From Paracoccus sp. SCSIO 75233 (GTDB lineage Bacteria; Pseudomonadota; Alphaproteobacteria; Rhodobacterales; Rhodobacteraceae): a stretch of DNA of 64,000 bases. The translations under genes and the position numbers were made by a program. Each line of letters starts with the position of its first letter. Positions within the stretch are counted from its first letter, which is position 1. The notes under the pieces were generated by a model that was not told where the DNA came from, made no database searches, and saw nothing but the letters and a program-made list of their open reading frames with translations. Positions 41,975 through 63,591 of this stretch are shown here, in pieces. The stretch lies in the NCBI RefSeq assembly GCF_027912675.1, contig NZ_CP115757.1, forward strand, positions 992,001 to 1,056,000, given 5' to 3'.

Positions 41975-43316
41975 ATGGCATTCAACGTAATCACCAATAC
42001 CAGCCATTCTGGGCGAGCGTCTTGAAGGCGGCCAGTATTCGGCCGACTGGATCGACGGTCTGGGCGGCAACGACACCATCATCGGTCACGACGGCGCTGA
42101 CGCGCTGATCGGTAACACCGGCGACGACCAGATCTTCGCTGGCGCCGACGACACCGATCTCGACTATGTGTCCGGCGGCGACGGCAATGACACCGCTTAC
42201 GGTGGCGGCGGCGGCGACCTGATGGATGGCGGCGCTGGCGACGACTACATGGGCGGCGGCACCGGCAACGACCTGATGTTCGGCGACACCGGCGTGCGCA
42301 GCTTCGACCCCTATGCCGAGAAAATCACCAACTACACCTTCAACGAAGGTCTGCAGGGTCCGCTGGCTTGGCTGGGTCTGCTCGACCACATCGGCATCGA
42401 TGACAACTACCTGAACTCCTTCCGTCAGTCGGAGTCGGGCAACGACACGATGTGGGGCAACAGTGGTCGCGACATGATCTTCGGCGGCTGGGGCAATGAC
42501 CTCATCGGCGGCGGCTACGGCAGCGACCTGCTCGTCGGTAACCGCGACAACGACACCATCTACGGCTATGCCGGTAATGACGTTGTTCTGGGCGGCGACG
42601 AAGACGACCAGCTCTTCGGTGGCGACGGCGACGACGTTATCGACGGCGACGAAACCCCGATCTGCTGCGGCAACGATCTTTATGACATCGATCCTGACGC
42701 CGTTGCACCGGGCAACCTTCAGCCCCCGCATCTGCTGGTTGACTATCTCGACGGGATCGAGTGGGTGTCGAATGACGACAACCATAACGGTAACGACGAA
42801 ATCTACGGCGGTAAAGGTAACGACTCCATCTTCGGTCGTGAAGGCGCTGACACCATCTGGGGTGGTGAAGGTGACGACGGCATGTATGGTGGCGACGACA
42901 ATGACACCGATATCTTCGGCTTCGTCAAAGGTCACGGCAATGACACCATCGGCGATTTCGACGCTGGCGAATGGTCCGAAGGCGGCAACCGCGATTGGGA
43001 GAACGGTGAAGACCTGATCGACCTTAGCACCGCCAACTTCGAAGGCGAGTTCCAGGATGCTGTCGATGACGGCGCGATTGTCTTCAACTACTTCCTGCCT
43101 GGCGTCCCGTCTGCTGGTGGCACTGTCACCATCGATACCACAATGCTTGGTCTGGAAGATGGCGGTACCATCACCATCTACTTCGAAGACGACGTCGACT
43201 TCATGGCCTTCGGCGCTCAGAACATCGCTCTGAACGGCGACCAGTGGGTCGACATCACCTCCAACTTCCAGAACATGGAAGCTGTCAGCGCGCCTGCTCC
43301 CGTCGGCGTTGCCTGA
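41975..43316 (+). pseudogene. RTX-type calcium-binding repeat protein, start out of frame with body
   Basis: ATG 41975 has GAGGA eight bases upstream and encodes MAFNVITNTS, but that frame stops at 42023. The long body begins in another frame at 42006 (ILGERLEGGQYSADWIDGLGG) and runs to 43316. One extra base at about 42005 separates them. The body contains about a dozen GGxGxD(D/N)xxx nonapeptides (GGDGNDTAYGG, GGAGDDYMGGG, GGDGDDVIDGD), which bind calcium in type I-secreted proteins. No type I secretion genes are adjacent. A strong terminator follows. The indel may be a sequencing error, a phase switch or real inactivation. Confidence 0.75.
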
Positions 43317-52185: not shown

Positions 52186-52200
52186 CTGACAGATTGTCAG
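52186..52200. promoter_or_regulatory. Palindromic operator candidate, copy 1
   Basis: CTGACA-GAT-TGTCAG, a perfect 6-bp inverted repeat with a 3-bp spacer. A second copy is centred 65 bp downstream, about six helical turns away. Confidence 0.6.
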
Positions 52201-52251
52201 GATCGAAGCCTTTGCTTTTCAACAGACTGTGCCGGGGCCGCGGGCCAGCCA

Positions 52252-52264
52252 TGACAGATTGTCA
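52252..52264. promoter_or_regulatory. Palindromic operator candidate, copy 2
   Basis: TGACA-GAT-TGTCA, same core and spacer as copy 1. It lies 122 bp before the first gene of the cluster. The regulator at 62227 with a Fis-type HTH is a possible ligand; unproven. Confidence 0.6.
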
Positions 52265-52276
52265 GGTGAAATTCAT

Positions 52277-52298
52277 ATAAGCAATTGTATTTGCTTAT
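52277..52298. promoter_or_regulatory. AT-rich inverted repeat
   Basis: ATAAGCAA, spacer TTGTAT, TTGCTTAT: perfect 8-bp arms, followed by TTTTTATTATTT. It could be an operator overlapping a promoter or an AT-rich terminator. The unusual AT content in GC-rich DNA supports a functional site. Confidence 0.45.
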
Positions 52299-52385
52299 TT
52301 TTATTATTTCAACTTGGAAATCACCGGCTATCTATGGGGTGTGACCGAAGGCAGCGAGACGCCTTCCCAGACGAGGGAGAGCCGG

Positions 52386-52700
52386 ATGAGCCACCGTATT
52401 TGGGCCGCCACTGTGATTGTGATGGTTTGCGCCGGATTTGCTGGCGCGCAGGAGGCCGAACCGGAGCCGGGGGCCGCGTTTGTGGCCGGGACCGCGCCAT
52501 CGGCGAGGCCGCCCGAAGCCCCGGTAATCGAGGCCGTGGACAAGGACGCGGATTGGTATGCGCAGGCCCTGACCGGGGTCAGCCAGCCCTATCCGGCAAG
52601 CCTGAGCTTTCTGGAGGAGCAGGGCAACTGGTTCTCGCCATTCCTGCATCCGGGAATGCCACCTCCCTACGATATTCGCGGCTGGTACCAGACGGACTAG
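52386..52700 (+). CDS. Small secreted protein, first gene of the respiratory cluster
   Basis: The product is 104 aa from ATG 52386, with GGGAGAG upstream. A signal peptide (IWAATVIVMVCAGFAGAQE) precedes a short mature chain with an acidic/Pro-rich part and an aromatic end (GNWFSPFLHPGMPPPYDIRGWY). No cysteines remain after cleavage except in the signal. I do not recognise the family. Position suggests a periplasmic role with the downstream Met-rich and haem proteins. Confidence 0.65.
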   Translation: MSHRIWAATVIVMVCAGFAGAQEAEPEPGAAFVAGTAPSARPPEAPVIEAVDKDADWYAQALTGVSQPYPASLSFLEEQGNWFSPFLHPGMPPPYDIRGWYQTD

Positions 52701-52796
52701 CCGCAACCGGACTTTCGGCGCCGACCTGCGCCGGAGGGCAGCGTTTCCACGGGATGGGCCCGTGCCAGACGCGATCTTATATGAGGAGCGAAGCGT

Positions 52797-53834
52797 ATGA
52801 AGATGACGATCAGGACCACATTCGCAGCGGCTCTTTGCACGGGTGCGCTGATGTCGGTCGCCAGTGCTCAGGGTATGTCGGGCATGAGCGGCATGGATGG
52901 AATGGACGGCATGTCGGGTATGTCCGGCATGGACGGGATGTCGGGCATGTCCGGTATGGATGGCATGTCGGGTATGAGCGGCATGGATGGCATGTCGGGA
53001 ATGTCCGGTATGGACGGCATGAGTGGCATGGGCGGCATGTCCGGGATGAGCGGTATGGCCGGCATGGCTGGCGGTAACCCCGGCTGGACCTGCACCCAGT
53101 GGACCATGACCGGTCAGGGCGGCATGTCCGGCATGAGCGGCATGGGCGGCATGTCCGGCATGGGCGGAATGTCCGGCATGAGCGGCATGGGCGGAATGTC
53201 CGGCATGAGCGGCATGGGCGGAATGTCCGGCATGAGTGGCATGGGCGGAATGTCTGGCATGTCCGGTATGGACGGGATGTCCGGCATGAGCGGCATGGAT
53301 GGCATGTCGGGCATGAGCGGCATGGATGGCATGTCTGGCATGAGCGGCATGGATGGCATGTCGGGCATGAGCGGCATGGACGGAATGTCTGGCATGAGCG
53401 GCATGGACGGGATGTCCGGCATGAGCGGCATGGACGGGATGTCGGGCATGTCCGGTATGGATGGCATGTCTGGCATGAGCGGCATGGACGGGATGTCCGG
53501 CATGAGTGGCATGGACGGAATGTCCGGCATGAGCGGCATGGACGGAATGTCCGGCATGAGCGGCATGGACGGAATGTCCGGCATGAGCGGCATGGACGGA
53601 ATGTCCGGCATGAGTGGTATGGGCGGAATGTCCGGCATGAGCGGCATGTCCGGGATGGCCGGTAACAATGCGGGCTGGACCTGCACCCAGTACACGCTGG
53701 CCTCCGGGCAATCGGGCATGTCCGGCATGAGCGGCATGGGCGGAATGTCTGGCATGTCCGGCATGGGTGGCATGTCGGGCATGAGCGGCATGGACGGCTC
53801 ATGGACCCCGCCGGAAGAGAAGCCGGCGAACTGA
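52797..53834 (+). CDS. Secreted Met-X-Gly triplet-repeat protein
   Basis: The product is 345 aa, with GAGGAG before the ATG. A signal peptide (FAAALCTGALMSVASAQ) precedes about 91 triplets Met-(Ser/Asp/Gly/Ala)-Gly in blocks of about 22, 60 and 9, mostly arranged as MSGMSGMDG or MSGMSGMGG. Two similar inserts, PGWTCTQWTM and AGWTCTQYTL, interrupt the blocks, each with one Cys; the end is SWTPPEEKPAN. Glycine at every third place is seen in collagen-like and polyglycine II proteins; Met at this density suggests copper(I) binding or oxidant scavenging. Between a secreted protein and a multihaem cytochrome, it is presumably periplasmic or surface. I know no characterised homologue. Confidence 0.85.
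   Translation: MKMTIRTTFAAALCTGALMSVASAQGMSGMSGMDGMDGMSGMSGMDGMSGMSGMDGMSGMSGMDGMSGMSGMDGMSGMGGMSGMSGMAGMAGGNPGWTCTQWTMTGQGGMSGMSGMGGMSGMGGMSGMSGMGGMSGMSGMGGMSGMSGMGGMSGMSGMDGMSGMSGMDGMSGMSGMDGMSGMSGMDGMSGMSGMDGMSGMSGMDGMSGMSGMDGMSGMSGMDGMSGMSGMDGMSGMSGMDGMSGMSGMDGMSGMSGMDGMSGMSGMDGMSGMSGMGGMSGMSGMSGMAGNNAGWTCTQYTLASGQSGMSGMSGMGGMSGMSGMGGMSGMSGMDGSWTPPEEKPAN
52876..53810 (+). repeat. 27-bp tandem minisatellite within the Met-Gly gene
   Basis: The DNA repeats a 9-bp unit nested in a 27-bp unit (ATGTCCGGCATGAGCGGC and variants) over more than 900 bp, interrupted twice by the Cys-containing inserts. Codon use varies between copies (TCC/AGC/AGT/TCG for Ser), so it is not a very recent expansion throughout. 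Copy number may vary between strains. Confidence 0.85.
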
Positions 53835-53906
53835 TCGCCCCGTTCTCCTCGCCAAACCGGGCGGCGGCAGGCCGCCGTCCGGACCAGCCGTATCGGAGAC
53901 ATGATT

Positions 53907-55424
53907 ATGCAGCGTTTGGAACAGTGGTTTGGTATGGCCGCATTGGCGCTTTATGCGCTGACGGGCGTGCTCGCCGTTTTTGTACTGGGAACACTTATTG
54001 TCAAAGGCGTCCCTGACCGCACGCCGGAATATATCGTCGCGGCACGCGCCGCAGCAGAGGCGGCGGCGGCAAATCCTGACGCCGGCGCTGAGGACACCCC
54101 GGCCAGCGGCTCTGCGCCTTCCCCGGAACCCGCTGTCGAAATGGCGGCGGCTGTCGATCCGGCGGCAGGCGAAAAAGTATTCGCCAAATGCAAGGCATGT
54201 CATACCGCCGATAGCGGCAAGGCCGACAGGATCGGTCCGCATCTCTGGGGTGTGTTTGACCGCCCCGTCGCCTCTGTCGAGGGGTTTGCCTATTCCGATG
54301 CGATGGCCGGGCATGGCGGAAACTGGACCGTTGAGGAACTGGACGCCTATCTGGCCGATCCGAAGGGCGATATTCCGGGCAACAAGATGGCCTTTGCCGG
54401 TCTGAAGGACACGGCGGACCGCCAGAACGTGATAGCATGGCTTGCGGCGCAATCCGACAGCCCGGTTGCGGCGGATGCGCTGTCATTCGCCGGTGTCGCG
54501 CTGGCTTCCGCAGATGCGGCCGCCACGGCCGAGCCCGCCGATGATACGCCCCAGATCGCGCAGATCGCCTATACCGATCCGCCCGAACCCGGCGAGGATG
54601 AGATCGCCCGGATCGCGGCACGGCTTGAGGAATTGCAGGCCGAAATCCCGACGCTGGATTATCAGCGCGCGCGGTATCTGCCGATCCACAACCAGCCGGA
54701 GATCAACGCTGCCTCCGATCAGGAATGCCTCGCCTGCCATCAGGAAATTCTCGACCGCGAGGTGCGGCTGGAATCCCCCGCCGGTCTGAAATCTACCGAG
54801 GCGCTTGCATGGTATCAGACGCTCGACACCTATATCCCGCAGGACGAGACCGGGCAGTCCAATTTCCACTGGCGCCATATCTCCAGCCCGCTGGCCCAGC
54901 AGACGATGAACCTGCAATGCAATTTCTGCCATCAGGGCAATGATCCGCGCGAGGAAAGCCCGGACCTCGTACCGCTGCGCGCGGCCTTCAGCGCCGATGC
55001 GACCTCGCCGGAGTTCACGTTGCGCAAGATGGTGAACCCGTCAGAGACCTGCCTGCGCTGTCACGGCGCGATGCCGGACCCGGAAGGGATCATGGGGCTT
55101 TATGGCGAATGGCCTGAAATCCGCGCCGATCTGGAGGATCAGACGAGTGACGATCCGACGCTGGCGAATGGCTGTCTGAGTTGCCATCAGGATCTCTACC
55201 GCACCAACCGCCACAATGTGACCTATCTGAAGGCCGCAGGGATCGAGGAACTGGCGCAGTCCGGCTCTGACACCTGTTACGGCTGTCACGGCGGCCGGGC
55301 CTGGTACCGGATCAGCTATCCCTATCCGCGCCATCCGTGGCCCGATATGGACCCGACGCTTCCCGAATGGGCGGCGAACCGGCCCACAAGCAGCGATGAA
55401 CGCTTTCAGCGTCCGGCGAACTGA
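53907..55424 (+). CDS. Membrane-anchored hexaheme cytochrome c
   Basis: The product is 505 aa from ATG 53907 (GGAG eight bases upstream; ATG 53901 is too close). One N-terminal membrane helix (about 9-32) and an Ala/Pro linker lead to a class I cytochrome c domain (CKACH 95-99, Met161 as likely axial ligand). A second part carries five more CxxCH motifs at 274, 338, 382, 423 and 457. No NapC-type quinol site was recognised. It probably carries electrons between the membrane pool and the DmsA-like enzyme, in place of a DmsC subunit. The link of a mono-haem and a pentahaem part in one chain is unusual. Confidence 0.85.
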   Translation: MQRLEQWFGMAALALYALTGVLAVFVLGTLIVKGVPDRTPEYIVAARAAAEAAAANPDAGAEDTPASGSAPSPEPAVEMAAAVDPAAGEKVFAKCKACHTADSGKADRIGPHLWGVFDRPVASVEGFAYSDAMAGHGGNWTVEELDAYLADPKGDIPGNKMAFAGLKDTADRQNVIAWLAAQSDSPVAADALSFAGVALASADAAATAEPADDTPQIAQIAYTDPPEPGEDEIARIAARLEELQAEIPTLDYQRARYLPIHNQPEINAASDQECLACHQEILDREVRLESPAGLKSTEALAWYQTLDTYIPQDETGQSNFHWRHISSPLAQQTMNLQCNFCHQGNDPREESPDLVPLRAAFSADATSPEFTLRKMVNPSETCLRCHGAMPDPEGIMGLYGEWPEIRADLEDQTSDDPTLANGCLSCHQDLYRTNRHNVTYLKAAGIEELAQSGSDTCYGCHGGRAWYRISYPYPRHPWPDMDPTLPEWAANRPTSSDERFQRPAN

Positions 55425-55436
55425 GGAGAACCCAAG

Positions 55437-57995
55437 ATGACACTGCAATCCCGCCTGTCGAACTGGGCCAAGGCCATCACCCCGACCCGTCGCCGCTTCC
55501 TGCAATCCGCGAGTGCGACCGCCGCCACGGTGCTGGTCGCGGGCAATATGCCGCGCAAGGCGCATGGCTTCGCCTATGAGCCCTATCCGACCGATGACGA
55601 GTTGGAGACCGTCGTGACCTCCTGCGCGCATAACTGCGGCAGCCGTCACATGCTGGTCGCGCATAAGAAGGGCGACGTGATCGTGCGCCTGTCGACCGAT
55701 AACGGCACCTATCAGGGCGATGCTTATGGCACCGATACCGAGGAGAAGCCGCAGATCAGGGCCTGTCTGCGCGGCCGGTCCTATCGCTCGCGCCTCTATA
55801 GCCCCGAACGTCTGCTCTACCCGATGAAGCGGGTCGGCAAGCGCGGCGAGGGCAAGTTCAAGCGCGTAAGCTGGGACGAGGCGCTGACCGATATCGCCAA
55901 CCGCATGGTTTACCTGAAGGATAAATACGGCCCCACGGCTCTGGTCGATCAGTCCTATGCCGGGGCGTCCTATGGCGTGCTGCATAAATCCGACCAGATC
56001 GAGGGGCTTCTGGGCCGCTTCCTCGGCATGTTCGGCTGCCGGACGAATTGCTGGTCGGTGCCGTCCTATCAGGGCACGACCTTCAGCAGCCGCACCACCT
56101 TCGGCACCATCGAGGACGGGAACGAGGACGACACCTTCGCCCACACCAAGCTGATGATCATGTGGGGCTGGAACCCGGCCTATACGTTCCACGGTGGCAA
56201 TACGTTCTACTATATGCGTATGGCCAAGCAGCGCGGTTGCAAATTCGTGCTGGTCGATCCGCAATATACCGATAGTGCTGCGGCCTATGACGCGTGGTGG
56301 ATCCCGATCCGGCCCAACACCGATGCCGCGATGATGGCCGGCATGGCCTATCATATCTGGGAAAACGAATGGCACGATCAGGGCTTTATCGACAGTTTCG
56401 TGCAGGGCATGGACCCCGGCACGATGCCGGACTGGGCACAGGGTCAGGAGAGCTTCCGGGAATATATCTATGGCGAGCGTGACGGCACGCCCAAAACCCC
56501 GGAATGGGCGGCGGAGATCTGCGGCGTCAGCGCCGATGACATCCGCAAGCTGGCCGAGATGTATGCGACCACCAAGCCAGCCGCGCTGAAGGCAAGCTGG
56601 GCACCAGGCCGCAACGCGTATGGCGAACAATATAACCGCATGGCCGCAGCCCTTCAGGCGATGACCGGCAATATCGGCATTCTCGGCGGCTGCGCGGAAG
56701 GTGTCGGCAAGGCGTGGCACGCGGAAGGCGTGGCCTATCCTTACGACCAATATGCAAATGTCTGGTACGCCTCGATCAAGTCCGACCGCTGGGCGCATTG
56801 CGTGCTGAACTATCCGAACCTGAAGCGCGAAGAGGTCGGGCTGTGGCCGCGTCAGGACAATCTCGACGGGGTGATCCCGAATATTCGCGGGATTTTCTAT
56901 CAGGGCTCGGACTGGTTCAACCAGCTGACCAATATCAACAAGGAGATCGAGGCGATCCGCAAGCTGGAGGCGGAAGGGGACGAAGAAAGCCTGTTCGTCT
57001 GCATGGACTCGACCATCACCCCGACCGGCATCTGGTGCGATTACCTGCTGCCGATTGCCACCCATTTCGAACGGCATGACGTGGCGCTGCCGTGGTATAA
57101 GGGGCACTACTATATTCACCGTCCCGTCGTTATTCAGCCCTTGGGCGAAAGCCGCACGGATTTGCAGGTCTTCACCGAACTTGCCTACCGGCTGGGCTTT
57201 GGGGAGGGGTATAACCCGAAGGCCACCCGCGATTACTTCTGGGATCCGACCTCGGTCGATGAGGCCTATCTGCGCGACTGGTGGTCTCGGGTGCAGATGA
57301 ATCAGGGCGTGGAGATCGATTGGGAGACGTTCAAGAAACGCGGCGTTTATAAGTTCATCCTACACGAGCCGCATGTGGCGTTCCGCGAGCAGATCGAACA
57401 GGGGGTGCCGTTCCAGACCCCGTCGGGCAAGATCGAGATATTCTCGACGACGCTGGCCCAGACGCCTGACTGGACACGGACCCAGTATGGCTATGAAATC
57501 CCCGCGATCCCGAAATGGATCGAACCGTGGGAGAGCCTGAACAGCGAAAAAACCGCCGACTTCCCGTTCCACGTCATCTCGCCGCATCCGCGCTGGCGGA
57601 CGCATTCGATCTTCAACAATATCCCGTGGCTGCGCGAGACGTTCAGTCAGGAACTGACGGTCAATGCCTCGGACGCGAAACGGCTGGGGATCGAAATGGG
57701 CGACACGGTCGAGGTCTATAACGACCGCGGCTCCTGCATCGTGCCGGTCTATGTGACGGAGCGCTGCATGCCCGGCGTGGCCGTGCTGCATGAAGGCGCG
57801 TGGATGGATCTGGACGAGAACGGCAAGGATCTGTCGGGCAACCCGGATTTCCTGACGCTGGACGAACCCAGCCCGGCAGGTGCCTTCGCTTACAACACGG
57901 TGCTGTGTGATATCCGCAAAACCGATCTCAGCCACCGACCGGGATGGGATCAGCTTGCGACCGCGCGCAGCCATGTCTTCCGTCGCGATCTGTGA
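55437..57995 (+). CDS. DmsA-like molybdopterin oxidoreductase, Tat-exported
   Basis: The product is 852 aa. Tat signal TRRRFLQ (17-23). The DMSO reductase family is clear: IRACLRGRSYRSRLYSPERL, YPMKRVGKRGEGKFKRVSW, LVDPQYTDSAAAYDAWWIPIRPNTDA, TPSGKIEIFS. The N-terminal Fe-S motif is C63-x3-C67-x3-H71...C110, where DmsA has Cys at the third place. Ser210 in WSVPSY aligns with the Mo-ligand Ser of DmsA. So an S- or N-oxide reductase type is likely, but the substrate is unknown. The adjacent DmsB-like gene and hexahaem protein should complete the complex in the periplasm. Confidence 0.9.
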   Translation: MTLQSRLSNWAKAITPTRRRFLQSASATAATVLVAGNMPRKAHGFAYEPYPTDDELETVVTSCAHNCGSRHMLVAHKKGDVIVRLSTDNGTYQGDAYGTDTEEKPQIRACLRGRSYRSRLYSPERLLYPMKRVGKRGEGKFKRVSWDEALTDIANRMVYLKDKYGPTALVDQSYAGASYGVLHKSDQIEGLLGRFLGMFGCRTNCWSVPSYQGTTFSSRTTFGTIEDGNEDDTFAHTKLMIMWGWNPAYTFHGGNTFYYMRMAKQRGCKFVLVDPQYTDSAAAYDAWWIPIRPNTDAAMMAGMAYHIWENEWHDQGFIDSFVQGMDPGTMPDWAQGQESFREYIYGERDGTPKTPEWAAEICGVSADDIRKLAEMYATTKPAALKASWAPGRNAYGEQYNRMAAALQAMTGNIGILGGCAEGVGKAWHAEGVAYPYDQYANVWYASIKSDRWAHCVLNYPNLKREEVGLWPRQDNLDGVIPNIRGIFYQGSDWFNQLTNINKEIEAIRKLEAEGDEESLFVCMDSTITPTGIWCDYLLPIATHFERHDVALPWYKGHYYIHRPVVIQPLGESRTDLQVFTELAYRLGFGEGYNPKATRDYFWDPTSVDEAYLRDWWSRVQMNQGVEIDWETFKKRGVYKFILHEPHVAFREQIEQGVPFQTPSGKIEIFSTTLAQTPDWTRTQYGYEIPAIPKWIEPWESLNSEKTADFPFHVISPHPRWRTHSIFNNIPWLRETFSQELTVNASDAKRLGIEMGDTVEVYNDRGSCIVPVYVTERCMPGVAVLHEGAWMDLDENGKDLSGNPDFLTLDEPSPAGAFAYNTVLCDIRKTDLSHRPGWDQLATARSHVFRRDL

Positions 57996-58007
57996 GGAGT
58001 AACGATC

Positions 58008-58676
58008 ATGGCAAACAAGATCGACAAGGCCCGGATCAAGGAGAACGCCGCCCGCATCAAGCGTGAGGGTTACACCCCGGTGGTGCCGGATATGCAGATG
58101 GGCTTCATCCACAACAATGTGGACTGCATCGGCTGCCGGGCCTGCGAAATTGCCTGCAAGGACAAGAACGGGCTGTCGGCGGGGCCGCGCTTCCGCCGGG
58201 TGCAGTATATCGAGGGCGGGGTGTTCCCGGACGTGTTCGCCTTCAAGATCAACATGTCCTGCAACCACTGCGCCGAACCGGCCTGCCTTCCGGCCTGTCC
58301 GACCGGCGCGATCTGGAAACGGGCCGATAACGGCGTCGTCGACATCGACAGCACGCTGTGCATCGGCTGCCGGAAATGCGAAGCCGCCTGTCCCTTCGGC
58401 GCGCCGCAATTCGACCCGGAGGAAAACGTCGTCAAGAAATGCAATATGTGCATCGACGAGTTGGAGGCGGATCGCAAACCTTACTGCGTCGCCGCCTGCA
58501 TGATGCGGGTGCTGGATGTCGGGCCGATCGATCAGATCGACGCGGGCAGCTATGAAACCAAGGCGGTCGGGCCGAATGACGAAATGGTCCGTCAGGTCCG
58601 CACGATGGCCGATCCGGAACTGACCAACCCCTCTATCCGCTTCGTGCCGCACAGCAAGGGGCGTGTCGATGGATGA
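58008..58676 (+). CDS. DmsB-like four-cluster ferredoxin subunit
   Basis: The product is 222 aa. Four Cys groups typical of DmsB/NarH-type subunits: CIGCRACEIAC, CNHCAEPACLPAC, CIGCRKCEAAC and CNMCIDELE...CVAAC. They bind four 4Fe-4S clusters that pass electrons between the catalytic subunit and the cytochrome. No signal of its own; such subunits travel with the Tat-exported partner. Starts 12 bases after dmsA-like gene. Confidence 0.92.
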   Translation: MANKIDKARIKENAARIKREGYTPVVPDMQMGFIHNNVDCIGCRACEIACKDKNGLSAGPRFRRVQYIEGGVFPDVFAFKINMSCNHCAEPACLPACPTGAIWKRADNGVVDIDSTLCIGCRKCEAACPFGAPQFDPEENVVKKCNMCIDELEADRKPYCVAACMMRVLDVGPIDQIDAGSYETKAVGPNDEMVRQVRTMADPELTNPSIRFVPHSKGRVDG

Positions 58677-59418
58677 TCAAAGCGGAACGCCGGATCAGGA
58701 AGCGGTCGAGGCACTTGGCGTCGGGGCGCAGGCGCTCGGCCTGCTGATCCGGCTTTTGGACCGGGAACCGGATGCGGAACTGCTCTCGGCGTTGAAGGAG
58801 ATGCGGGCGGGCGATTTCTATGCCGAATTGCTGCCGGTCGGGCGCGGGCACGAGGCCGGGCTGGCGCTGCAATCGGCGCTGGACAGTCTGCCTGACGCGC
58901 CGGATCAGCAGGTGCTAGACCTGCTCGCGGCCGATTTCGCCGATTGCTTCCTGACCCACGGATACAGGCTGTCGCCCAATGGCTCTGTCTGGATGATGGA
59001 GGAGCGGCTGGAACGGCAATTGCCGATGTTCGAGGTGCGCGAGTGGTATGCGCATTACGGGCTGGAAGTGCCGGACTGGCGGATCAGGTCCGACGATCAT
59101 CTCGTCCACCAGTTGCAATTCGTGCAGCATCTGATGGAGTTGTCGGAACAGGTCGCGCTTGTCGATGCCGCGCATTTCATGGACCGCCATGTCCTGCCCT
59201 GGGCGCCGGAGATGGGTCGCCGCATGGCGCAGCGCTGTGCGACGCCGCTCTATGCCGCGACCGGGGCGCTTGTCGCGGATCTGCTGCCGGTGCTGCGCGA
59301 GTTGCTGGCGGAGTTGACTGGCGTCGCGATCAGCATCGCGCCTCTGCCGGGGGACAAGCCACATCCGAAAGCGCCGGAACGGGAGCTTTATATTCCCGGT
59401 GCCGCACCGAGCTGGTGA
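58669..59418 (+). CDS. TorD/DmsD-like chaperone
   Basis: The product is 249 aa from ATG 58669 (AGGGG eight bases upstream), overlapping the ferredoxin gene. All-helical, with LAADFADCFLTHGYRLSPNGSVWM and LQFVQHLMELSEQ matching the TorD pattern. It should bind the DmsA-like Tat signal and assist molybdenum cofactor loading before export. Overlaps the next gene (TGATG). Confidence 0.85.
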   Translation: MDDQSGTPDQEAVEALGVGAQALGLLIRLLDREPDAELLSALKEMRAGDFYAELLPVGRGHEAGLALQSALDSLPDAPDQQVLDLLAADFADCFLTHGYRLSPNGSVWMMEERLERQLPMFEVREWYAHYGLEVPDWRIRSDDHLVHQLQFVQHLMELSEQVALVDAAHFMDRHVLPWAPEMGRRMAQRCATPLYAATGALVADLLPVLRELLAELTGVAISIAPLPGDKPHPKAPERELYIPGAAPSW

Positions 59419-60431
59419 TGTCCTCGCGGGGACAGCGCGGCCCCCGGATCGATCACGAGGCCTGTTTGCATGGGCTGTCGGTCATGGCGGGATGCGCCGA
59501 TTGCATCGCCGCCTGTCCGCATGAGGCGCTGAGCTTTTCCGGCGGAGCCATTCACCTCGACCCGGTTGCCTGCAATGATTGTGGCGCTTGTGTTGGGGTC
59601 TGTCCGGTTCGGGCGATAACTGCCGGGCAGCCTCAGGTGACGCCGCTGGCCGATACCGGAACGCTGACCCTTGTCTGTCAGCGCCACAAGGCCGCGCGCG
59701 GGTTGACCGCCCGTGCCTGTATCCAGTCTGCCGGGCGGGAGCAGGTGGCGCGCTGGATGCTCGACAATATCCGCCATATCGCCTGCGCCACCGGGGATTG
59801 CGAAACCTGCCCCGATGCGCCTGCTGCCGGTCTGGCTGAAACGGTGAATGATCTGGCCCCGCTGGCCGAGGCCGCAGGCCGGATACCGCCACGGATCACG
59901 CAGGCGAGCCTTTCTGAGGTCGAGACATGGCGTCGGCATGCACAAGACGCCCCGGCCCAATCACGCCGTGCCCTTCTGCGCGCTGTGGTCGCGCCGTTGC
60001 GGGAAAGCGTGGCGGATGACCGGGCAGGGCCCGCATTGCGGCGGTTGCAATCCGAAATGCCCGCCGATGCGCCGCGCGCCTTCGTGCCGGTGATAGATGC
60101 CGCGACCTGCACAGGCTGCGATGCCTGCATCCGTCTGTGTCCCGAAGCGGCCTTGACCCTGATCAACGACGATGACGGCGAAATGCGCTATGTGGTTTCT
60201 GCGGATGCGTGCACGGGTTGCCTGCTTTGCGAGGATGTCTGCACGGATGCCGCGATCGAGGTTGATGCGATGAAGCCAGCGCCGCCAGCTGTCGCCCTGA
60301 ATGAGTTTCGCTGCCGCGCCTGTGGCAGGGAAACCCATGTGCCTGCCGCAGGTGATTTCGGCAGAACCGGGCTGTGCCCGGTTTGCGAGCGGACCGGGCA
60401 TCACAAGAAGCTGTTTCAGGTTCTTGCATGA
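59418..60431 (+). CDS. Fe-S protein with C-terminal zinc-ribbon, in the Dms-like cluster
   Basis: The product is 337 aa, soluble. Two N-terminal ferredoxin-like sites (CADCIAACP, CNDCGACVGVCP), a middle part with CQRHK and CATGDCETCPD, two further clusters (CTGCDACIRLCP, CTGCLLCEDVC) and a CRACG...CPVC ribbon at the end. The arrangement resembles cytoplasmic electron-transfer or maturation proteins found beside DMSO reductase-family operons, but I cannot name it. It may feed electrons to or assist assembly of the enzyme. Confidence 0.8.
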   Translation: MSSRGQRGPRIDHEACLHGLSVMAGCADCIAACPHEALSFSGGAIHLDPVACNDCGACVGVCPVRAITAGQPQVTPLADTGTLTLVCQRHKAARGLTARACIQSAGREQVARWMLDNIRHIACATGDCETCPDAPAAGLAETVNDLAPLAEAAGRIPPRITQASLSEVETWRRHAQDAPAQSRRALLRAVVAPLRESVADDRAGPALRRLQSEMPADAPRAFVPVIDAATCTGCDACIRLCPEAALTLINDDDGEMRYVVSADACTGCLLCEDVCTDAAIEVDAMKPAPPAVALNEFRCRACGRETHVPAAGDFGRTGLCPVCERTGHHKKLFQVLA

Positions 60432-62230
60432 CCATCATGACCGGGTTTCGGGACCGGATCGCGTCGCGGGTCTGGATACAGCTTGTCACCCTGCTGGGCG
60501 CGACGCTGCTTGCGGCCTCCACCGTTTTGCTGGTTCTGGTCATCGGGTTTTATTATCAGCGGTTGTCAGCGACGCAGGATAACTCGGCGGAGATGATCGG
60601 CGACCTGCTGCAAACCGCGCTGGAAAAGGCCATGCTCGCCCGTGACATCCCAGCCCTTCAGGGGACGGTCGATGCGCTGAGCGCCACGCCGACGATTGCG
60701 GAGATCGCGGTTCTCGACCGGGATCGGCGCATTCGCTTTACCAGCGGCGCGCTGCCTGCGGGCGGCATCCTGCAACCGGATCAGCCCGCCGGGCAGGACG
60801 GTTTCGCCCGGATCGAGCGCCCGGTCCCCAACCAGCCGGCCTGCGAAAGCTGTCACGGCGCGGTCGTGGAAAACCCTGTGAACGGGTTTCTGGTGGTGGA
60901 TTATGCCGTCAGCGGGATCATGCGTGACACGCTGGTTAGTGCGGTCGGGCTGGTGGTGCTGGGCGGTCTGGTGACGCTGGCAGCCTCGACCGTTTTGGCG
61001 CTCGGGTTGCGGCGGATCGTGGTGCGGCCGGTCAAGGCGCTCGGCATGGCGACGGAACAGATGGCTGCGGGTGACCTGAGTTCGCGGGTCGCCCCCGATC
61101 CCGGCGGCAATGAGATTTCCGCCCTTGGCCGAAGCTTCAACCAGATGGCGGAGAATATCGAAGCCGGGCAGGCTGCGCTGACCCGGTCGGAGCGGATGAG
61201 CCAGGCGCTGATCGACGCCATCCCTGACGGTATCCGGGTCATCGGCCCGGATTTCCGCATCCTCCGCGCCAATGCCGCTTATGGCGAGCAGACCGGACGG
61301 CCCCTGTCCGAGATTATCGGCCAGCCCTGCTATGCCTCCAGCCACGGCAGGGATGAACCCTGTCCCTACACGCTGGTGACCTGTCCGGTTGCGGAAATGC
61401 GCAAAACCGCCCGCCATCTTACCTTTCGCGACGTGCATCTGAACCCGGACGGGGTGCAGATCCCGGTGGAGGTTTCCGCCGCGCCGATGGAGGATTGCGT
61501 GGTCGAGGCGATCCGCAATCTGGACGAACAGGCGCGAATTTCTCAGGCGCAGCGCCTGTCGGAAATCGGTCTGCTGGCGACCGGCGTGGCGCATGAGATC
61601 CACAACCCGCTCAGTTCGATGGAACTGGCGCTGGACCGGATCACCCGCGATCTGGCACAGGGGCGCGATGACAAGGCGCAGGAATATTTCCCGCTGATCC
61701 GTGGGGAAATCGCCAAATGCCTTGAGATCACTGATAATCTGATGCGCCTCGGCGGTCCGGCGGAGGAGGGGCAGCAGCTTGTCGATCTGCGCCGCGCCGT
61801 GACGGGCGTAACCGGGCTTTTGTCCTTCGAGGCGGAGCGTCGGGGCGTCAGTGTCGCGATTGATATATCCGACGAGTTGCGGGTTCTGATCGCCGAGGCC
61901 GATCTTCTGATGGCGATCAGCAATCTTGCGCTGAATGCGATCCACGCCATGCCCGGTGGCGGCGTGCTGACACTGTCCGGCCGCCGGAGCGAGGCGCGCA
62001 TCTTGCTGGAGGTGTGCGATACCGGCGTCGGCATTCCGGCGCAGGACATCAACGATATTTTCATGCCGTTCTGGTCGCGCCGCGCGGATGAGACCACGGG
62101 GCGCGGCCTTGGCCTTGCGATCACCCGTGCAATTGTCGACCGTGCGAATGCGCGGATCAGCGTCGAAAGCGCGCCCGGCCAGGGCAGCCGCTTCACCATC
62201 TCGTTCCCCGACCCGGATGCAGCATCATGA
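60428..62230 (+). CDS. Sensor histidine kinase with periplasmic c-haem motif
   Basis: The product is 600 aa from ATG 60428 (ATGA overlap). Membrane helix 20-42, periplasmic domain about 43-165 containing CESCH (139-143), second helix about 168-192, HAMP, a PAS domain (about 260-365) with Cys301, 312 and 319 in CYASSHGRDEPCPY...TCPVAE, then His389 in VAHEIHNPLSS and an HATPase domain. CxxCH in an exported segment predicts covalent haem, so the sensor probably reads redox state, oxygen or nitric oxide. The PAS cysteines could be a second redox switch. Coupled to its response regulator. Confidence 0.87.
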   Translation: MTIMTGFRDRIASRVWIQLVTLLGATLLAASTVLLVLVIGFYYQRLSATQDNSAEMIGDLLQTALEKAMLARDIPALQGTVDALSATPTIAEIAVLDRDRRIRFTSGALPAGGILQPDQPAGQDGFARIERPVPNQPACESCHGAVVENPVNGFLVVDYAVSGIMRDTLVSAVGLVVLGGLVTLAASTVLALGLRRIVVRPVKALGMATEQMAAGDLSSRVAPDPGGNEISALGRSFNQMAENIEAGQAALTRSERMSQALIDAIPDGIRVIGPDFRILRANAAYGEQTGRPLSEIIGQPCYASSHGRDEPCPYTLVTCPVAEMRKTARHLTFRDVHLNPDGVQIPVEVSAAPMEDCVVEAIRNLDEQARISQAQRLSEIGLLATGVAHEIHNPLSSMELALDRITRDLAQGRDDKAQEYFPLIRGEIAKCLEITDNLMRLGGPAEEGQQLVDLRRAVTGVTGLLSFEAERRGVSVAIDISDELRVLIAEADLLMAISNLALNAIHAMPGGGVLTLSGRRSEARILLEVCDTGVGIPAQDINDIFMPFWSRRADETTGRGLGLAITRAIVDRANARISVESAPGQGSRFTISFPDPDAAS

Positions 62231-63591
62231 CACAGTCGGATATTTCGTCACCCGAGAAGCCCGGAAACGGCAGCCGCCGCACCATTCTGGTCATCGAGGA
62301 TGACATGACGCTGAACCGCCTGCTTTGCGGACAGTTGAGCGAAATGGGCCATGCCGTGCATGGGGTGGCCTCGCGCGCTGACGCAATGGAGCTGCTGGGC
62401 GGCATTGCGCCGGATCTGGCGCTGCTCGATGTTCGTCTGCCTGACAGCAGCGGGCTGAGCTTTCTGTCGGAACTGCGCGAATATTGCCCGGTGATCGTCC
62501 TGACCGCCTATGCCTCGATCAATCAGGCGGTTGAGGCTGTGAAGGAAGGGGCAAGCGAGTATCTCGTCAAGCCGGTCAGCCCCGCCCGGCTTGAACTGGC
62601 GATCAGTCGTGCGCTGGAGACGATGGCGCTGCGTCGCGATCTGGCCTTCTGGCAGGCGGAGGCGCAACGTGCGGCGCGTCATGAGCTGATCGGGGACAGT
62701 GCGGCGCTGGCGGAGTTGCGCCGCATGGTCGGGTTGCTGGCGGCATCGGATTCGCCGGTGCTGATACGGGGCGAAAGCGGCGTCGGCAAAGGCGTGATCG
62801 CCGCCGCGATCCATGCCCAGGGACCGCGCGCCAATGGCCGTTTCGTGACCGTCGATTGCGATCCGGAGATGATGGAATCCGAATTGTTCGGCAAGGTTCG
62901 GAACGGTCAGCTGATCGAGGGGCTTCTGGCGGCGGCGGATCACGGCACCGTGTTTCTGAACGACATCGAAAAACTCAGCGGCACCATGCAGAGCCGGCTG
63001 CTGCGCCTGCTTGAAAAGGGCAGTTACCGCCCGCATGGCAGCAATGCCGAGATCTACAAGGATGCGCGGGTGATCGTTTCGACCGCTGCGGATCTCGATG
63101 CGCTTGTGACGCAGGACCGGTTCCGGTCTCAGCTTTACTACAAGCTGTCGGGCTTTGCGCTGGTTGTGCCGCCATTGCGGGACCGGCGCGAGGATATTCT
63201 GCCGCTGGCGGACTCGCTGCTGGCCAATCGCAGTTTCCAGCGGGGGGTGGAGAAATCCTTCTCAGCCGATGCGCGGGATCTGCTGCTGCATCACGACTGG
63301 CCGGGAAATATCCGCGAGCTTGCGAATGCCGTGGATCGCGGTGTCATGCTGTCCGCTGGCGAGGCAGTGATAGAGCCGGATCAGCTTGGCCTGACGCATC
63401 GCAAGAGCGCCACAGGGGACGACGCCACGGCGGTTACGCTGCGTTTTGCCGCCCCGCCGACGCTGGACGACCTGCGCGATGCCTATATCGCGGAACTGAT
63501 CGAACGGCTGGACGGAAACCGTCAGCGCATCGCCACTGTGCTGGGCATATCGGAGCGGAACCTCTACCGGCTGCTGAAACCTCGCGCCTGA
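62227..63591 (+). CDS. NtrC-like response regulator without GAFTGA
   Basis: The product is 454 aa. Receiver domain with phospho-acceptor Asp68 (LLDVRLPDSSG) and Lys in YLVKPV; AAA domain with GESGVGKG, GTVFLND and the arginine region; Fis-type HTH at the end (NRQRIATVLGISERNLYRLL). After ESELFG the usual loop with GAFTGA, which contacts sigma-54, is missing. It should thus act with sigma-70-type polymerase, as known for Rhodobacter NtrC. Pairs with the kinase upstream and probably controls the 52386-63591 cluster. Confidence 0.88.
   Translation: MTQSDISSPEKPGNGSRRTILVIEDDMTLNRLLCGQLSEMGHAVHGVASRADAMELLGGIAPDLALLDVRLPDSSGLSFLSELREYCPVIVLTAYASINQAVEAVKEGASEYLVKPVSPARLELAISRALETMALRRDLAFWQAEAQRAARHELIGDSAALAELRRMVGLLAASDSPVLIRGESGVGKGVIAAAIHAQGPRANGRFVTVDCDPEMMESELFGKVRNGQLIEGLLAAADHGTVFLNDIEKLSGTMQSRLLRLLEKGSYRPHGSNAEIYKDARVIVSTAADLDALVTQDRFRSQLYYKLSGFALVVPPLRDRREDILPLADSLLANRSFQRGVEKSFSADARDLLLHHDWPGNIRELANAVDRGVMLSAGEAVIEPDQLGLTHRKSATGDDATAVTLRFAAPPTLDDLRDAYIAELIERLDGNRQRIATVLGISERNLYRLLKPRA

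Follow-up and report, generated by a model that had tools for sequence, protein, structure and literature searches.

What a bacterium might gain from exporting a protein made almost entirely of methionine-X-glycine triplets, encoded next to a molybdoenzyme and a multihaem cytochrome, is the question raised by a locus of Paracoccus sp. SCSIO 75233. The window, that is the whole stretch of DNA analysed, comprises 64,000 nucleotides of contig NZ_CP115757.1 (positions 992,001 to 1,056,000), and the gene under study, here called MXG, is the second of a nine-gene operon with the order SEC (small secreted protein), MXG, HEX (hexahaem cytochrome), MoA (DmsA/YnfE-like molybdoenzyme), FeSB (DmsB-like 4Fe-4S protein), TorD-like chaperone, FeS2 (4Fe-4S ferredoxin-like protein), CxxCH histidine kinase and sigma-54 regulator. 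The comparison of loci presented below showed that MXG is almost always present in a conserved operon encoding a dimethyl sulfoxide (DMSO)-reductase-family enzyme and a multihaem cytochrome, and it looks like a standard part of this respiratory system. Its position inside a molybdoenzyme-hexahaem cytochrome cluster, as given in the original prediction made from the letters of this DNA, was found correct by family matches.

The MXG Gene and its Repeats

The open reading frame (ORF) and its parts are located in the window as follows.

52797..53834, + strand: MXG ORF, secreted Met-X-Gly repeat protein, 345 aa
52797..52868, + strand: signal peptide, residues 1-24, sequence MKMTIRTTFAAALCTGALMSVASA; cleavage site inferred, helix at residues 2-22 in the structural model
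52875..53072, + strand: Met-X-Gly block 1, 22 triplets by count
53073..53123, + strand: insert 1, GWTCTQWT (residues 96-103), with Cys99; strand at 97-104 in the model, motif recurring in relatives
53124..53663, + strand: Met-X-Gly block 2, 60 triplets by count
53664..53717, + strand: insert 2, GWTCTQYT (residues 293-300), with Cys296; strand at 294-301 in the model
53718..53798, + strand: Met-X-Gly block 3, 9 triplets by count
53799..53831, + strand: C-terminal tail SWTPPEEKPAN, a WTPP-like ending common to many relatives

A secreted protein of about 90 Met-X-Gly triplets with two GWTCTQ(W/Y)T inserts had been predicted, and this description was confirmed: 92 triplets were counted (MSG 59, MDG 20, MGG 9, MAG 3, MTG 1), arranged in runs of 22, 60 and 9 and a lone MTG, and residues 1-24 form a signal peptide by sequence. 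The mature chain of 321 residues contains 92 Met, a single Lys, no His and four Pro, none of the latter within triplets, X being S, D, G, A or T in 92 of 92. Successive Met residues are three positions apart in 97% of steps and successive Gly residues in a fraction of 0.78, and the longest run of 60 triplets compares with a maximum of 5 in 2000 shuffles of the mature residues. The protein unit consists of nine residues, MSG-MSG-M(D/G)G, and Tandem Repeats Finder (TRF) detected a 27-nt period over 52881-53798.

Since the 27-nt repeat is of low complexity and both strands have long open frames, with antisense ORFs over the MXG bases, MXG might represent a functionless repeat expansion or an antisense reading-frame artefact. 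The DNA repeat is, however, not a simple duplication, since 22 different DNA versions were present among 28 MSGMSGMxG units, with serine codons alternating between TCN and AGY. The ratio of nonsynonymous to synonymous differences (pN/pS), calculated for 26 MSGMSGM(D/G)G units, was 0.10 in the MXG frame; in the other forward frames it was 1.4 in one, the third being devoid of any synonymous difference, and in the antisense frames 2.2, 0.37 and 1.1. The variety of DNA versions and the low ratio are the reasons why MXG was taken as coding, with its protein sequence under selection, while the antisense ORF as a real gene was ruled out by the same ratios and the antisense ORFs were read as by-products. 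An artefact is further contradicted by the constant position of the gene in 62 of 66 loci, in which its length and X residue vary, and is extremely improbable. An AGGAG precedes the ATG, and MXG reads, as judged from its sequence, as a translated, exported and almost purely Met-X-Gly protein. Several MXG proteins of Rhodobacterales, among them those of the window (residue 14), L003, L005 and L012, have a Cys within the hydrophobic signal-peptide core; this Cys does not fit the usual lipobox.

Distribution of the Operon

Genomes, one per species, were scanned by alignment of the cytochrome only, so that the presence of MXG at the loci found was not presupposed. The scan gave 66 loci (L003-L068), and MxG coding sequence lies directly upstream of the cytochrome in 62 of them, or in 62 of the 63 able to tell, as L004, L017 and L023 offered only 185, 167 and 0 bp upstream of the cytochrome, with no MxG there. 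The single locus lacking MXG is L053 of Candidatus Sedimenticola endophacoides, in which the region is present and SEC is followed directly by the cytochrome. The original prediction had named presence beside other clusters of this kind as a check, and absence from all other genomes with the same cluster as its refutation; the protein was found beside nearly all of them. The MxG ORF is uncut by a contig edge in 38 of the 62 loci, the other 24 contigs starting inside the MxG coding sequence. MoA was found in 65 of the 66 loci, the contig of L056 ending first, and SEC was clustered in 34 of the 66 and in the window, 24 of the remainder ending inside MXG. ORFs with more than 20 masked residues were excluded from the operon clustering, which affects the MXG of L052.

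The nine-gene order recurs, with variants in which, for example, the regulator pair is displaced or reversed, the ferredoxin is missing or extra MxG genes are present. Additional MxG proteins of lipoprotein-like or membrane-anchored type were seen in the interval between cytochrome and MoA in L045, L056, L057 and L060, and in that between MXG and cytochrome in L012 and L014. The operon records are labelled as Alphaproteobacteria, Gammaproteobacteria, Hydrogenophilus, Magnetococcia and one Pirellulaceae metagenome-assembled genome, and include Thiomargarita and Candidatus Sedimenticola. The record of L018 is named Exiguobacterium profundum, and the operon on it is otherwise a proteobacterial one; the name looks misassigned.

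The operon is also carried by the conjugative plasmid pEJ01 (NZ_CP017782.1, L094) of the cultured marine bacterium Rhodobacter xanthinilyticus LPB0142. Both SEC and MXG (the latter WP_198037905.1) are annotated there as hypothetical, and a whole respiratory-type operon has two exported components known by no other name on this plasmid. The protein escapes notice because the repeat is where 24 of the 62 contigs begin and because tblastn with low-complexity filtering missed its own plasmid record. The pEJ01 operon lies near an IS1247-family transposase, and two molybdoenzyme places were noted on the record.

The association was also seen in genomes sampled from the family and the class. Among 295 genomes of the window's family, drawn evenly, MoA was called at E<=1e-100 and MxG as a run of six Met-X-Gly triplets; such runs occurred in 8 of 8 genomes with MoA versus 1 of 287 without it (Fisher p 7e-15, genomes treated as independent). 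In the lone MoA-less genome, G132, the run consists of MAG triplets and starts an alanine-racemase/serine-dehydratase ORF, and the reversed-pattern control gave 0 among the rows listed. Genome G023 showed 19 forward-strand Met-X-Gly pattern matches besides 56 on the MoA strand, and a second MxG locus is likely there. A sample of 385 genomes of the class contained six with a molybdoenzyme match: the three with MoA at 74-100% identity had 46-76 Met-X-Gly pattern matches, and the three with an enzyme at 40-42% identity had none, nor any match to other operon proteins of the window in the 13 kb of sequence covered for these distant enzymes. Seven further genomes of the class without MoA had 1-5 pattern matches each, attributed to six GroEL-type GGM tails (three Cpn60 by Pfam, three by eye) and one multicopper oxidase.

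Conservation among MXG Proteins and Relatives Outside the Operon

The X position, counted in the best MXG ORF of each locus with the window not counted, was occupied by S 1234, G 769, A 117, N 77, D 74, E 39, Q 29, K 28 and Y 14 times, other residues being rarer. Met and Gly are kept while X varies, and therefore the thioether looks selected. Two tandem MXG genes occur in L081, where X is often Y, P, R, W or G, and in the MXG fragments of Thiomargarita the triplet register is broken and the sequence still rich in Met and Gly. Cysteine was counted after the first triplet in 41 MXG ORFs, that of the window among them, whose first base lies over 60 nt away from the start of the locus and some of which are fragments or frame-broken (for example L013, L018, L024, L045, L052, L057, L061): exactly two Cys were present in 24, none in 11, one in 5 and five in 1. 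The motif (W/Y/F)xCxx(W/Y/F) occurs at least once in 29 of the 41.

A protein search with MXG gave 79 matches among 7994 scored candidates. By precomputed Pfam assignments, 18 of the 79 carry c-type cytochrome domains and 11 carry domains of CusB-like, DUF305, CopA or cupredoxin type, which we take, in part by assumption, to be copper-handling. P0001 is an OmpA-domain fusion with related Trp-Cys motifs, and P0003 a free MxG protein with GWTCKRW. Among the best 120 homologues of HEX, runs of at least two MxG triplets were found in three; in P0100 and P0078, runs of 8 and 6 triplets lie between the N-terminal anchor and the haem domains.

Predicted Structure of MXG

The AlphaFold model of MXG, built with a 14-sequence alignment, has a mean predicted local distance difference test (pLDDT) of 44.8; most of the repeat blocks have values of 35-44 and are left disordered. 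Strands at residues 97-104 and 294-301 fall within blocks of mean pLDDT 74, 73 and 86. As the rest of the chain is disordered and these two strands are short and confidently predicted, they fit pairing with each other. Foldseek with this low-confidence model returned 0 matches in the PDB.

Every third residue of MXG is Gly throughout its runs of 22, 60 and 9 triplets, and because of this spacing the protein is matched by the Pfam family Collagen (PF01391; 112.3 bits, cut-off 27.2), which is the sole Pfam match of MXG and of four relatives. A collagen triple helix was rejected, no triplet holding proline, and the Pro-rich X and Y positions of such a helix are lacking. The only NCBIfam matches of MXG are collagen-like adhesins below their cut-offs (SclB 104.7 versus 325, Lcl 93 versus 500, SclA 68.1 versus 400 bits). 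Hence the bacterial collagen-like proteins (PF01391, SclA/SclB, Lcl) share the Gly-X-Y register with MXG and differ from it in their proline. The collagen-like fold of the original prediction is weakened in spite of the PF01391 match, and a strict repeat fold loses ground through the low pLDDT of the repeats and the broken register of the Thiomargarita fragments; perhaps the chain leans towards polyproline-II (PPII) conformation.

It could be proposed that MXG is a structural partner, an extended polyproline-II/polyglycine-II or abductin-like elastic chain which tethers or spaces cytochrome and molybdoenzyme, with the Trp-Cys strands as docking points. The regular Gly spacing of the window protein agrees with this, as does the placement of the runs of P0100 and P0078 between anchor and cytochrome domain, where the other homologues inspected are Ala/Pro-rich, and the occurrence of further lipoprotein-like MxG proteins between cytochrome and MoA in L045, L056, L057 and L060. 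The GGM tails of GroEL are described as forming PPII helices with Met outside and are likened there to abductin (PMC12571646). A pure spacer, however, would not need Met in every third place while X drifts, and neither the low pLDDT of the repeats nor the absence of a Foldseek match speaks for an ordered chain, so that this function appears rather unlikely.

Possible Function of the Met-X-Gly Chain

Everything beyond coding, export signal, near-constant linkage and the retention of Met and Gly is inference. The original prediction had named copper(I) binding, the wiring or shielding of haem proteins, oxidant scavenging and filament formation as candidate roles. It is tempting to speculate, as a tentative first choice, that MXG serves as a renewable pool of thioethers beside the DMSO-reductase-family enzyme. 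MXG would be a flexible, mostly disordered periplasmic chain. Its two GW-x-C-T-Q-(W/Y) strands would join, a disulfide being one possible link, and would close off a long loop rich in Met. The protein would act through the chemistry of its roughly 90 exposed thioethers, placed next to the MoA-HEX complex: the Met residues could be the sacrificial targets of oxidation by reactive species that the pathway produces or respires, and the sulfoxides could be re-reduced by MoA itself, as a relative of enzymes reducing protein-bound methionine sulfoxide (MetO), or by the MsrP of the cell. The arrangement might then be a larger version of the pairing of MrpX and MsrP in perchlorate reducers, linked to a different enzyme.

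Several published systems give a basis for this proposal. DorA reduces MetO in proteins, its rate on QWGAGM(O)QAEED being about three times that on TTPGYM(O)EEWNK (PMC7402097). The gene mrpX is found with yedYZ in perchlorate-reduction islands (PMC4623255), and BcrXQP, a Met-rich peptide with a molybdenum MetO reductase, acts in the hypochlorite resistance of Brucella (PMC8315932). Like MXG, MrpX of Azospira suillum and BcrX are secreted and Met-rich, and their genes adjoin that of a molybdenum enzyme from a MetO-reducing family; scavenging of hypochlorite followed by re-reduction is a further trait of the MrpX/BcrX type. BcrX has MXKDX repeats and a co-encoded MsrPQ and extracytoplasmic function (ECF) sigma system (PMC8315932), and of these features MXG shares the Met-rich secreted nature, lacking the MXKDX repeat as well as co-encoded MsrP/MsrQ and ECF sigma. 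MXG is set apart by its Met-X-Gly triplets and Trp-Cys inserts, and it is encoded with an enzyme of the DMSO-reductase family and a two-component system of sigma-54 type.

In favour of the thioether pool we count the linkage, the retention of Met and Gly, the kinship of MoA together with its Ser column (see below), the MxG runs of P0100 and P0078, and the cytochrome domains in 18 of the 79 MxG proteins. The model NF003767, which we take to be that of MsrP, was over cut-off in 7 of the 8 family genomes with MoA, including that of the window, where the match lies elsewhere in the genome and not in the operon.

A number of observations weigh against it. NF003767 is general, being over cut-off also in 15 of 16 tested genomes without MoA, and the window operon contains no Msr, ECF sigma or peroxidase gene, its regulators being the sigma-54/CxxCH two-component pair. 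All 65 rows of the MoA alignment (the window included; L007, with MoA cut at 653 aa, and L056, with no MoA on its contig, left out) are at least 70% identical to the MoA of the window, which points to a substrate that is small and specific, and away from MetO, and the operon of L053 indicates that the enzyme can exist without MXG. The class I cytochrome c domain could point to a high-potential electron chain with MoA as an oxidising enzyme. Finally, the M-x-G-M motifs of CopA have been read in print as copper sites (PMC7060636), and 11 of the 79 MxG proteins have copper-handling domains.

This last point leads to the proposal of a soft-metal sponge, a continuous M-x-G-M chain in the periplasm that would bind Cu(I), Ag(I) or some soft product reduced by the enzyme and would so protect the molybdoenzyme, cytochrome maturation or the cell. 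CopA is reported to contain MGGM, MAGM, MGAM and MSGM motifs that possibly bind many Cu(I) ions (PMC7060636), and it is this publication from which the copper(I) reading gains; MXG is nearly a polymer of such motifs. The M-x-G-M/MxxM pattern pervades the window protein, with its 97% of Met-Met steps of three, and besides the CusB-like, DUF305, CopA and cupredoxin domains of the 11 MxG proteins, one of the seven MoA-less class genomes with runs has them in a multicopper oxidase. The Met-rich proteins SilE and CopM are reported to be related to silver or copper (PMC5008109, PMC4335983). On the other hand, the operon includes neither a metal transporter nor a copper regulator, the window MXG has no His, and the flanking genes form groups in at most 6 of 67 loci apart from MxG-type ORFs. 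The sponge is a possibility that we hold with considerable doubt; with the CopA motifs suggested as copper sites, the thioether pool is placed only just ahead of it.

As a variant, MXG may be a redox buffer or an electron or oxygen-atom relay of a new respiratory complex, the Met rows of the Trp-Cys-clasped loop cycling between Met and MetO, or passing holes, between oxidant, MoA and cytochrome, which would make MXG the physiological substrate of the enzyme; this appears unlikely.

A more distant proposal is a particle coat, in which MXG would cover an elemental product (S, Se or Te) of the MoA pathway in the manner of sulfur-globule proteins or of SefA, a particle-coating protein. The best-scoring models for MoA are DMSO, selenate and tellurate reductases, and operons occur in Thiomargarita and Candidatus Sedimenticola, organisms with a sulfur lifestyle. 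The sulfur-globule envelope of Allochromatium is reported to consist of very hydrophobic proteins (PMC10386293). SoxB, however, was over cut-off in 5 of 8 genomes with MoA versus 11 of 16 others, and no link of the operon to Sox sulfur oxidation was seen in these 24 genomes, the 16 without MoA being the first in the list. A coating role is quite improbable.

Relation to Described Glycine- and Methionine-Rich Proteins

The statement of the original prediction that no protein of this type was described proved too strong, abductin, the GroEL GGM tails, the Met motifs of CopA and MrpX/BcrX being described analogues, and its interpretation is only partly supported. The scallop hinge protein abductin and the GGM tails of GroEL/Hsp60, the latter reported as PPII-prone (PMC12571646), are Gly/Met-rich and tripeptide-like as MXG is; abductin is an animal elastomer and the GGM sequence a short chaperonin tail, with runs of about 6-10 triplets in the class scan, while MXG is a complete, exported protein encoded in a respiratory operon. 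The Met-rich region of the multicopper oxidase CopA is likewise periplasmic and has M-x-G-M motifs (PMC7060636); it belongs to an oxidase of a copper-resistance system, whereas MXG has no oxidase domain and no adjacent copper genes. SilE, CopM and other Met-rich Ag/Cu periplasmic proteins resemble MXG in being secreted, Met-rich and probably disordered, and in contrast to this set the window MXG is devoid of His and its operon of metal-resistance genes.

A literature search, in which subscription journals are poorly covered, gave no paper on MXG or the operon among the matches listed. We know of no earlier case of such a protein accompanying a respiratory-type complex almost obligatorily; MrpX of the perchlorate islands comes closest. 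Two questions become testable with the operon: on which substrate MoA acts, and how a cell benefits from placing about 90 Met side chains next to a cytochrome complex.

Other Genes of the Operon

The remaining genes of the operon are located in the window as follows.

52386..52700, + strand: SEC, small secreted protein, 104 aa from ATG, with a TTG upstream at 52314; ORF with relatives, no known family
53901..55424, + strand: HEX, hexahaem cytochrome with a hydrophobic N terminus, a probable membrane anchor; made up of a class I cytochrome c (c552/cy-like) and a five-haem MtrC/c7-like part
55437..57995, + strand: MoA, DmsA/YnfE-like molybdoenzyme with twin-arginine signal, by family models and alignment
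58008..58676, + strand: FeSB, DmsB-like 4Fe-4S protein, by family models
58663..59418, + strand: TorD-like chaperone, by family models
59415..60431, + strand: FeS2, 4Fe-4S ferredoxin-like, no signal peptide seen, by family models
60428..62230, + strand: histidine kinase with CxxCH in the N-terminal sensor part; start inferred, frame open from 60374
62227..63591, + strand: sigma-54-dependent response regulator, by family models

MoA and FeSB are homologous to DmsA and DmsB of E. coli, the identity of MoA being 35% to DmsA, 35% to YnfE, 33% to YnfF and 29% to TorA. The DmsA/YnfE model TIGR02166 gave 600.7 bits, below its cut-off of 777.7. At the column presumed to hold the molybdenum ligand, E. 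coli DmsA, YnfE, YnfF and TorA have Ser, and so do 64 of the 65 MoA rows, the other showing a gap. The third Cys of the FS0 cluster site is replaced by His in 64 of the 65 rows, window included, with a gap in L017, and a four-Cys FS0 is therefore lacking; MoA is a distinct subfamily of DmsA-like enzymes. Compared with DmsABC and YnfEFGH of E. coli, the window operon has no DmsC-like gene, a multihaem cytochrome being found instead, and MXG and SEC are added. In 67 clustered HEX ORFs six CxxCH motifs were counted in 27, five in 38 and four in 2, and the class I domain is missing from many distant ones.

SEC has a conserved C-terminal half, PYPxSLxFLEDQGxWFxPFxxPGMxxPYDIRGW, and 1678 relatives at E<=1e-3 among 7031 candidates; the best 120 of these showed no Pfam domain, and their readable source names are hypothetical or uncharacterized. 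The structural model of SEC has a mean pLDDT of 66. Two tandem SEC units were noted in P0199, P0202 and P0206.

Of the 58 kinase ORFs clustered, 56 have the CxxCH, that of the window among them, and the kinase is possibly a haem-based redox sensor. A scan for sigma-54 promoters found 29 sites in the window versus 33 expected, and promoter and terminator scans of 52200-55500 gave 2 and 1 sites versus 0.9 and 1.2 in shuffles, none of which was used.

No group of flanking genes was found in more than 6 of 67 loci, save a 12-locus group of MxG-type ORFs. One of the six-locus groups is a gene adjoining the window operon, presumably Mrp/ApbC-like. Outside the operon, TRF also detected 27-nt tandem repeats at 42199-42294 and 42789-42892, the consensus of which could code for a GGxGxD-like motif, a candidate of RTX type.

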